64,000 nt of DNA from Planctomycetaceae bacterium (GTDB taxonomy: Bacteria; Planctomycetota; Phycisphaerae; Phycisphaerales; UBA1924): contig JAJTDF010000011.1 in NCBI GenBank assembly GCA_021294835.1, positions 1 to 64,000 of the forward strand. The letters are read 5' to 3'. Below are positions 4,940-58,226 of this stretch, in pieces. The stretch's first letter is position 1, and each line of letters starts with the position of its first letter. A program made the position numbers and the translations under genes. The notes under the pieces were generated by a model. That model was not told the DNA's origin, made no database searches, and saw only the letters and a program-made list of their open reading frames with translations.

Positions 4940-5757
4940 GTGCCGCGGGTGTTCCCAAACAGATGGATGTGGAGGCGTGTGCAGTATCGCCAGCCATGGC
5001 GAAGGACAAGGTCGAGGACGGCCTGGCGGGCCTGTGGGCCGGGCTCAGCGACGCCCTCGGGCATGGCGAGCACATCGGCCGGTGCGATGGGGGAGCCGGC
5101 CTGGGCGAGGGCGGAGAGGAGGTCGAGGATTTCGCGTTCGTCGGAGGGGAGGGAGGCGGGGTTGACGACGAACTTGAGTTGCAGATCGGCGTTGGCGGGG
5201 TGGGAATGGATGGAGGAGATGAGGTCGGCCAGGACGGGGAGGTTGAGGCGGCGGGCCTCGTGACGGACGGCCCAGGCGCCGGAGGGGTCGCGGGGGTCGG
5301 CGACTGGGGTGCTGTCGGCGAGTTTGGGGGAGAGGCTCAGGAGGTTGCAGACGGCCAGGGCGCGGGGATTGGCGACGGTGCCGGCGGTTTCGATGGTGAT
5401 GTGGAAGCCCCGGGCGGCGAGGGCTTCGGCCAGGGGGCCCAGGGCGGGGAAGAGCATGGGCTCGCCCCCGGTGAGGACGGCGTGGCGGATGGAGGGGCCG
5501 GCAAGCTGGGTGATCTGGGCGAGGAGCTGGTCAACGGTGAGGGTGGGGCCGTCGGGGTTCCAACTGGCGTAGGGCGTGTCGCACCAGCGGCAGCGGAGGT
5601 TGCAGCCGGAGAGGCGGACAAAGACGCTGGGGACGCCGGTGAGTTTGCCCTCGCCCTGGACGCTGGCGAAGACCTCGCTGACGCGGAGGCGCGTGGGGTC
5701 GGCGGCGGCGGCATCGTCGGCGATGGCCGAGGCGGGATGGACCGGCAGCTCGGGCAT
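4936..5757 (-). CDS. queE: 7-carboxy-7-deazaguanine synthase (radical SAM)
   Basis: FASVQGEGKLTGVPSVFVRLSGCNLRCRWCDTPYASW, TGGEPML; overlaps hrpA start by 4 bp (ATGA). Confidence 0.93.
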   Translation of the reverse strand: MPELPVHPASAIADDAAAADPTRLRVSEVFASVQGEGKLTGVPSVFVRLSGCNLRCRWCDTPYASWNPDGPTLTVDQLLAQITQLAGPSIRHAVLTGGEPMLFPALGPLAEALAARGFHITIETAGTVANPRALAVCNLLSLSPKLADSTPVADPRDPSGAWAVRHEARRLNLPVLADLISSIHSHPANADLQLKFVVNPASLPSDEREILDLLSALAQAGSPIAPADVLAMPEGVAEPGPQARQAVLDLVLRHGWRYCTRLHIHLFGNTRGT

Positions 5758-5802
5758 GGGAAGGGGGAGTTTAGATGGGCACGGGGGTGCGGCGGCCGGT
5801 TT

Positions 5803-6525
5803 TCAGAGGTAGCGGGTGGGATCGGGGATGCCGGCCTCGGCGAAGCCTCGGCGGCGGATCTGGCAGGCATCGCAGCGGCCGCAGGCCAGGGGGGAGCCGT
5901 CGGAGGCGGTGGCGGGGTCGTAGCAACTGTGGGTGAGGTGGTAGGGGACGTTCAGGGCGGCGCCGGCGCGGATGATCTGGGCCTTGGTCATGTCGGACAG
6001 GGGGGCGTGGACGGTGAAGGCGCGGCCCTGGGTGCCCAGCGCGGTGGCGAGGGTGGCGGTGTGGGCAAAGGAGCGGATGAACTGGGGGCGGCAGTCGGGG
6101 TAGCCGGAGTAGTCGACGGCGTTGACGCCGGTGAAGACATCGACGCAGTTGCGGGACTCGGCGAAGGCGACGGCCATGGAGAGGAGCACGAGGTTGCGGG
6201 CGGGGACGTAGGTGACGGGGATGTCGGCGGCCATGGCGCGTTCGTCGCGGTCTTTGGGGACGGCGATGGTGTCGTCAGTCAGGGCGGAGCCGCCGAAGGC
6301 GCGGAGATCGAGGGTGACGATCTGCCAACTGGCGGCGGAGAGGGCGGAGGCCAGTGCGCGGGCGGCGAGCAGTTCGTGCTTGTGGCGTTGGCCGTAATCG
6401 AAACTCAGGCAGTGGCAGACAAAGCCCTGGGCGCGGGCCATGGCCAGCACGGTGGCGGAATCGAGGCCTCCGGAGAGCAGGACGGTGGCGGCGGGCGGGC
6501 CGGGGGGAACGGGAGGGGCGGTCAT
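5803..6525 (-). CDS. queC: 7-cyano-7-deazaguanine synthase
   Basis: VLLSGGLDSATVLAMA, SFDYGQRHKHEL, C-terminal CxxCxxCxxR cluster (CGRCDACQIRRRGF). Confidence 0.95.
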   Translation of the reverse strand: MTAPPVPPGPPAATVLLSGGLDSATVLAMARAQGFVCHCLSFDYGQRHKHELLAARALASALSAASWQIVTLDLRAFGGSALTDDTIAVPKDRDERAMAADIPVTYVPARNLVLLSMAVAFAESRNCVDVFTGVNAVDYSGYPDCRPQFIRSFAHTATLATALGTQGRAFTVHAPLSDMTKAQIIRAGAALNVPYHLTHSCYDPATASDGSPLACGRCDACQIRRRGFAEAGIPDPTRYL

Positions 6526-6651
6526 CGCGCCAAGCCTAAACCGCCGCCGGGGCGGGCAGCGGAGCGGGGCCGGAGCCAGCGAAGCGGTGGCGGCGGTGTG
6601 TGCGGCGGGTTGGGGCCGGGCGGATGGTGCGGATTGTGCAGATTGTGCAGA

Positions 6652-56600: not shown

Positions 56601-57305
56601 GAGCACCAGCTCGAGGACACCGTCGGTCCGATCTTCCGTCGCGTATGCGAGGACGCCAAGGCCCGCGATATCCTGCGGCCCGCGGTGGTGTACGGCTACT
56701 TCCCGGCCAGCAGCGAGGGGGACGACCTGGTCATCTGGGACCCGGCCTCGCTGCGTGACGGGACTGATCCCAACGGCTCGCGCCCGCGCGTGCACGCCGG
56801 CCTGCGCGAACTGGAGCGCTTCCGCTTCCCCCGCCAGCAGGGCCGCAAGCGGCTGTGCATCTCGGACTACTTCCGGCCGGCATCGTCTGGCGAGCTTGAC
56901 GTGGTGGCGTTCCACTGCGTCACCGTCGGCAAGCGGGCCACCGAGGCGGCGCACGAGTTGTACAAGGCCAACCAGTACGCCGAGTACCTCTACCTGCACG
57001 GCCTGGGCGTGGAGACCGCCGAGGCCCTCGCCGAGATGTGGCACAAGCGCATCCGGCAGGAACTGGGCATCGGCAACGACGACTCCCCGCGCATCCGCGA
57101 CCTGTTCACGCAGAAGTACCGGGGCAGCCGCTACTCCTTCGGCTACCCGGCCTGCCCGGACATGTCCGATCAGGAGAAGCTCTTCCGCCTGCTGGATCCC
57201 TCGCGGATCGGCTGCTCGCTGACCGAGAACTGGCAGATCGACCCCGAGCAGAGCACCAGCGCCATCATCGTGCACCACCCGGAAGCCAAGTACTTCAACG
57301 TGTAG
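53661..57305 (+). CDS. metH: Cobalamin-dependent methionine synthase
   Basis: [54 protein letters not shown] (B12 DxHxxG), C-term SAM activation domain. Confidence 0.97.
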   Translation: [1214 protein letters not shown]

Positions 57306-57371
57306 GCCCCCCCTGCCGCCCGCCCCTTCCGCTCCCCCCGGCCACACGACCGACCGCGGGTACCCTGCACT

Positions 57372-58226
57372 GTGCGTTTCCTCTTCCTCGGCACCGGAAC
57401 CTCTGCGGGCGTGCCCGCCATCGCGTGCGACTGCACGGTGTGCACCTCCTCCGACCCGCGCGACACCCGCCTGCGCTCCGGCGGCGCCGTGCTGTTCACC
57501 GACGCCTCCGGGCACGAACGCTGCGTGCTGATCGACGCGACGCCCGACCTGCGCCAGCAGGCCCTTCGCGCCGGGCTGCGCCGCTGCGACGCCATCCTGT
57601 TCACCCACAACCACGTCGATCACACCTTCGGCCTGGACGAGGTTCGCCGCTTCAACATCGTTCAGCGGGCTCCGGTGCAGGTGTTCGCCGAACACCACAC
57701 CATGGAGCACCTCCGCCGCGTCTACCAGCACATCTTCCAGAGCGAGCACAACGTCAACGACTCGTTCGTCGCCAGCCTGCTGCCGCACGCGGTGTTCCCG
57801 GACGTGCACATCGACCTGTTCGGGCTGAAGGTCACGCCGGTGCGGCTGCTGCATGGCCGGCTGCCCATCCTGGGCTTCCGCTTTGACCTCTCGCCGGCCC
57901 TGGCCCGGGCCAACCCGCAGGCGGCCGAGGTCTTCCCGCTGGCCTACTGCACCGACGTCTCGGCCGTTCCGCCCGAGGGCGAGCGGCACCTGCACGGCCT
58001 GGGCACGCTGGTGCTCGATGCCCTCCGCCACCGGCCCCACCCCACGCACCTGACCCTGGGCCAGGCCGTCACCATCGCCGAACGCCTGCACCCCCGCCCG
58101 CGGCAGACCTTCTTCACCCACATCGCCCACGACCTGCCCCACGCCGAGACCTGCGCCACCCTGCCGGCGGGCATGGCCCTGGCCCACGACGGCCTGGAAC
58201 TCGGGGCCGACCCCGACGAATCCTGA
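57372..58226 (+). CDS. MBL-fold metallohydrolase (PhnP-like), GTG start
   Basis: RFLFLGTGTSAGVPAIACDCTVC, AILFTHNHVDHTFGLDEVRRFN. Confidence 0.9.
   Translation: MRFLFLGTGTSAGVPAIACDCTVCTSSDPRDTRLRSGGAVLFTDASGHERCVLIDATPDLRQQALRAGLRRCDAILFTHNHVDHTFGLDEVRRFNIVQRAPVQVFAEHHTMEHLRRVYQHIFQSEHNVNDSFVASLLPHAVFPDVHIDLFGLKVTPVRLLHGRLPILGFRFDLSPALARANPQAAEVFPLAYCTDVSAVPPEGERHLHGLGTLVLDALRHRPHPTHLTLGQAVTIAERLHPRPRQTFFTHIAHDLPHAETCATLPAGMALAHDGLELGADPDES

Follow-up and report, generated by a model that had tools for sequence, protein, structure and literature searches.

In this stretch of planctomycete DNA, hexamers of the form TANNNT lie almost on the start codons of many genes on both strands. Are they -10 promoter elements, such that transcription begins at or within a few nucleotides of the start codon and yields leaderless mRNAs? 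The window (the whole stretch analysed, 64,000 nt) is contig C89 of a 3.85-Mb draft genome (170 contigs, 89% complete, approximately 69% GC). The source is a planctomycete rather than a Deinococcus, because the best 80 relatives of its ArgS protein (45–63% identity) are, apart from a few mislabelled records, nearly all from drafts of Phycisphaerales or other planctomycetes. A 16S rRNA gene, sought for its anti-Shine-Dalgarno (SD) sequence, was absent from the 89%-complete draft.

TANNNT boxes in the window

The first-pass annotation listed 15 boxes with gaps of 5–13 nt to the start codon. A mechanical scan of both strands recovered all 15, with hexamers and gaps exactly as described, and Pfam matches were consistent with most of the gene names assigned earlier. 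The gap range applies to the window; the genome-wide peak is narrower (5–9 nt), and the longer gaps of queE (10 nt), scpB (11 nt) and gatB (13 nt) may be tail cases or leaders of a few nucleotides. The boxes are as follows:

5768..5773, minus strand: TAAACT, 10 nt before the queE ATG (5757), outside the main peak
6533..6538, minus strand: TAGGCT, 7 nt before the queC ATG (6525; QueC, PF06508)
9026..9031, plus strand: TACCCT, 5 nt before the ATG (9037) of a thioesterase with a 4HBT match
10011..10016, minus strand: TACGGT, 5 nt before the ATG (10005) of an EamA-family gene
10109..10114, plus strand: TACCAT, 11 nt before the scpB ATG (10126), outside the main peak
12055..12060, minus strand: TACGGT, 5 nt before the ATG (12049) of a gene whose product lacks a Pfam match and was earlier called a lipoprotein
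12179..12184, plus strand: TACCCT, 8 nt before the pheT ATG (12193)
18179..18184, plus strand: TACCCT, 9 nt before the argS ATG (18194)
20157..20162, plus strand: TATCCT, 8 nt before the Uma2 ATG (20171)
21730..21735, minus strand: TATCCT, 8 nt before the ATG (21721) of a pfkB-family gene
30944..30949, minus strand: TACGGT, 5 nt before the ATG (30938) of an S1/P1-nuclease-like gene, back to back with the gatB box
30971..30976, plus strand: TACCCT, 13 nt before the gatB ATG (30990); in relatives the box is mostly at 5–9 nt
42918..42923, minus strand: TACACT, 5 nt before the GTG (42912) of a Ser/Thr kinase gene
46468..46473, minus strand: TAAACT, 8 nt before the ATG (46459) of a DUF4190-like protein (34.7 bits, slightly below the Pfam cut-off of 35)
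57361..57366, plus strand: TACCCT, 5 nt before the GTG (57372) of a metallo-beta-lactamase-fold protein

The start codons of the divergent S1/P1-like gene and gatB are separated by 51 bp and the two boxes by only 21 bp, so a -35 element of one promoter would overlap the -10 element of the other. The interval between these start codons (30939–30989) also carries, between the two boxes, a GC-rich palindrome, GCCCCCGCCGGGGGC, which is possibly an operator. Elsewhere in the window, the GC skew switches from positive to negative near position 44000, and a tRNA-Ser (CGA) gene lies at 58349–58436. An open frame of 1580 codons (53583–58325, minus strand) runs antisense to a strongly coding gene for 1214 amino acids (53661–57305, plus strand) and is most likely a GC-driven shadow frame.

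A genome-wide positional peak

We sampled stretches totalling 1.19 Mb (31% of the genome) for gene-by-gene counts and called 836 genes with a gene finder that uses frame-specific coding statistics and is blind to upstream motifs, so that the start codons in the gene-based counts were computed from coding potential alone. TANNNT occurred 4–9 nt before the start of 79 of 804 genes, whereas dinucleotide shuffles averaged 6.6 such genes and never exceeded 12. Spacers of 5, 6, 7, 8 and 9 nt accounted for 18, 23, 9, 20 and 8 genes, against about 1 per position elsewhere. The positional peak between -6 and -14 on which the first-pass annotation had staked its proposal, to be scored against shuffled upstream regions, is therefore present. 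An apparent dip at spacer 7 is treated as noise because high-GC relatives do not have it.

Counts made independently of gene calls gave the same picture. TANNNT-N5–9-ATG was found 170 times in the sample versus 69 expected (z = 12), and 567 times in the whole genome versus 242 and 233 at shifted spacings, the latter being phase-matched. In the gene-free sample count, neither permuted hexamers before ATG nor GTC, ATC, CTG and other trinucleotides behind TANNNT produced a comparable peak. Boxes before GTG, two of which had been reported in the window, were supported by the gene-based counts (13 versus 1.6) and only weakly by the small gene-free excess (415 versus 361).

When any in-frame start was allowed, 131 of 809 genes had a boxed start, whereas a decoy spacing yielded about 20 candidates; for 53 of the 131, coding potential alone had picked another start. 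The earlier estimate that boxes are far more frequent than chance thus extends to the genome, although the window (15 of about 47 genes) is richer than the genome as a whole. About one gene in seven has a TANNNT box 5–9 nt before its start and no SD sequence, and its mRNA very probably begins at the start codon.

Two classes of genes

Expectation maximization (EM) on the upstream regions returned GGAG as the first motif (6–8 nt before the start, in 40% of genes). The second motif, TACcCT at 5–9 nt, emerged from the 380 genes without GGAG, with an estimated occurrence in 28% of them and a log-likelihood of 168 versus at most 66 in shuffled data. The two signals rarely coincide: a box preceded 1 of 287 SD genes versus 72 of 380 others, and an SD core was present in 2 of the 131 boxed genes versus 250 of 676 other genes. 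This exclusion is partly geometric because both signals occupy the same positions. The contrast noticed at first in the window also held there: 15 of the 32 unboxed genes, and none of the 15 boxed ones, had an SD core at positions -16 to -5 (Fisher p = 8e-4). These patterns indicate that SD and box mark distinct gene classes within one genome, in which leadered, SD-dependent expression operates alongside in about 40% of genes.

Probable promoter character of the boxes

Boxed genes differed from SD genes in their genomic context. A divergent neighbour was present for 57% of boxed versus 29% of SD genes, and a co-directional gene no more than 15 nt upstream for 3% versus 17%. By this measure of gene order, boxed genes sit at the starts of predicted transcription units, where promoters are expected. 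Alignment of 131 promoters of the genome on the box revealed neither a -35 signal nor a TG extension (extended -10), no -35 signal was seen in 118 orthologous promoters, and an EM search for a -35 motif scored no better than shuffles. The initial caution that -35 elements are unclear was thus well placed.

The genome encodes a full-length primary sigma factor, RpoD (contig C29), whose region 2 segment, RFSTYATWWIRQAISRA, and region 4.2 helix closely match those of a solved RpoD. Its -10-binding segment is intact. As region 4.2 is intact as well, -35 recognition appears to be available and to go unused at the boxed promoters.

Conservation in the order and the phylum

The box is kept at the start codons of orthologs despite protein identities of only 36–63%. 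A boxed in-frame start was found in 68 of 78 orthologs of argS, 25 of 29 of pheT and 25 of 29 of gatB, as opposed to 7, 5 and 5 in shifted-spacing controls. An SD core was present in 8 of the 18 orthologs without a box versus 6 of the 118 with one, as expected if genes switch between two modes. Which bases fill the variable positions depends on the gene across the order: pheT orthologs mostly carry TAYNCT and gatB orthologs TANNAT. Both tRNA synthetase genes among the boxed genes, pheT (12193–14226) and argS (18194–20116), show this order-wide conservation of the box.

A de novo search of other Phycisphaerales loci with more than 62% GC ranked TAcacT at 6–9 nt first. The same gene finder applied to two control replicons gave a peak in Deinococcus radiodurans MP1 (10 of 100 genes at 5–9 nt) and none in Sinorhizobium meliloti pSymB (3 of 154 genes). 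Across 147 planctomycete genomes, close spacings exceeded shifted ones (z > 4) in 56 of the 74 with a low background, a count that is neither matched for codon phase nor resolved by gene and by which AT-rich genomes cannot be judged. Outside Phycisphaerales, TANNNT-N5–9-ATG was in strong excess in four of our family groups (f21, f22, f52 and f59), and the excess was absent in some others, such as f27. The excess in 56 of the 74 genomes suggests that the -10-adjacent box is common in the phylum Planctomycetota.

Proposed mechanism and alternatives

We consider it highly likely that each box serves as the -10 element of an RpoD promoter that functions without a -35 element and gives rise to an mRNA that is leaderless or has a leader of a few nucleotides. 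The RpoD-RNA polymerase would bind the lone -10 hexamer through T1, A2 and T6 of TANNNT. RNA synthesis would then start about 6–8 nt downstream of the box, on the first base (A or G) of the start codon or 0–3 nt ahead of it, and boxes at 10–13 nt would produce mRNAs with a leader of a few nucleotides. The leaderless mRNA would be translated without an SD sequence from its 5'-terminal AUG or, sometimes, GUG. The promoter part of this mechanism is strongly supported by the sequence patterns, whereas we infer the transcription start site, the sigma specificity and the leaderless translation. The leaderless interpretation first offered for the window is upheld by the de novo recovery of the box, the exclusion of SD sequences, the position at unit starts and the conservation in orthologs; a leader of zero length would follow from -10 geometry.

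The boxes could also be -10 elements and yet give many transcripts with a leader of 1–10 nt, initiated by 70S binding or scanning. Spacers of 9–13 nt, such as those of queE, scpB and gatB, would indeed leave a few nucleotides if RNA starts 6–8 nt after the box. Most of the peak lies at 5–8 nt, however, and points to a start on the codon itself, which makes widespread short leaders somewhat unlikely. If the box acted in the translation of leadered mRNAs, as an S1-binding or other non-SD site for the ribosome, this could account for its taking the place of the SD sequence at the same distance. Furthermore, Nakagawa (2017; PMC5397173) observed in one planctomycete an AT-rich bias in which effects of leaderless mRNAs and of S1 were inseparable, leaving S1 open for planctomycetes. 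Against such a role, the constant T1, A2 and T6 and the C-rich middle found de novo are the signature of a -10 element and not of a U-rich S1 site, and boxed genes sit at transcription-unit starts. We regard a translation signal as very improbable.

Chance in GC-rich DNA, upstream stop codons or a biased choice of starts might be suspected, since the examples were picked post hoc and with a choice between alternative starts. No such peak arose in shuffles or at shifted spacings, nor with permuted hexamers or other trinucleotides, and orthologs keep the box. A stop-codon origin was rejected: TAC and TAT, which are not stops, dominate among the boxes, and the peak is equally strong with them. 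The probability that such artefacts explain the boxes is negligible.

Relation to known systems and significance

TANNNT was defined as a leaderless signal in Actinobacteria and Deinococcus-Thermus, in a text that makes no mention of planctomycetes (Zheng, 2011; PMC3160421). Shared with those lineages are a hexamer about 10–12 bp ahead of the start codon, the coexistence of SD and TA classes and a high GC content, but the fraction of genes is lower here (approximately 14–16% versus at least 20%). Zhong (2025; PMC12340547) tested -10 motifs adjacent to open reading frames in Deinococcus and scanned bacteria broadly. In Deinococcus-Thermus, TANNNT likewise lies 6–7 bp before the reading frame and works without a -35 element. 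Bases 1, 2 and 6 proved essential there and are known here from conservation alone; our case concerns another phylum, has a C-rich middle (TACCCT versus TACACT) and is built from sequence. In Mycobacterium tuberculosis, whose start sites were mapped (Cortes, 2013; PMC3898074), the TANNNT -10 element, the lack of a -35 motif, a preference for C at -1 and leaderless tRNA synthetase genes (7 of 14) all resemble the pattern described here, where start sites are predicted. According to GeneMarkS-2 predictions, 21.6% of bacterial species use leaderless transcription, a set that may include planctomycetes. Our literature search found no paper describing TANNNT leaderless genes in Phycisphaerae. The order is thus a new lineage for a phenomenon known from Actinobacteria and Deinococcota.

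A second difference from M. tuberculosis concerns CarD, which stabilizes open complexes in Thermus and mycobacteria and is an accessory factor in lineages with -35-independent promoters. A PF02559 search of 41 genomes of the order, which could miss a divergent CarD, found no standalone CarD. The strongest match in each genome lay in a frame of 940–1364 amino acids, the size of Mfd, and the second, weaker matches in 2 of the 41 genomes were in frames of 1732 and 823 amino acids, which are not CarD-sized. In the genome studied here, the sole CarD-domain match lies in Mfd (contig C24, 26811–27077). We tentatively propose, at rather less than even confidence, that isolated -10 hexamers suffice for initiation by the Phycisphaerales polymerase throughout the genome, without a -35 element or CarD, and that selection kept argS, pheT and gatB leaderless throughout the order, in parallel to the tRNA synthetase genes of M. 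tuberculosis. If so, the role of CarD would be filled by another factor or by a property of the RNA polymerase.

These results add an uncultured planctomycete order to the two high-GC groups from which -10-adjacent leaderless expression is best known; across this order it would be conserved at essential genes. The box is also useful for correcting start codons. Possibly the more interesting point is that the order would provide a comparison group with -35-less promoters and no detectable CarD, in which the need for CarD becomes testable.
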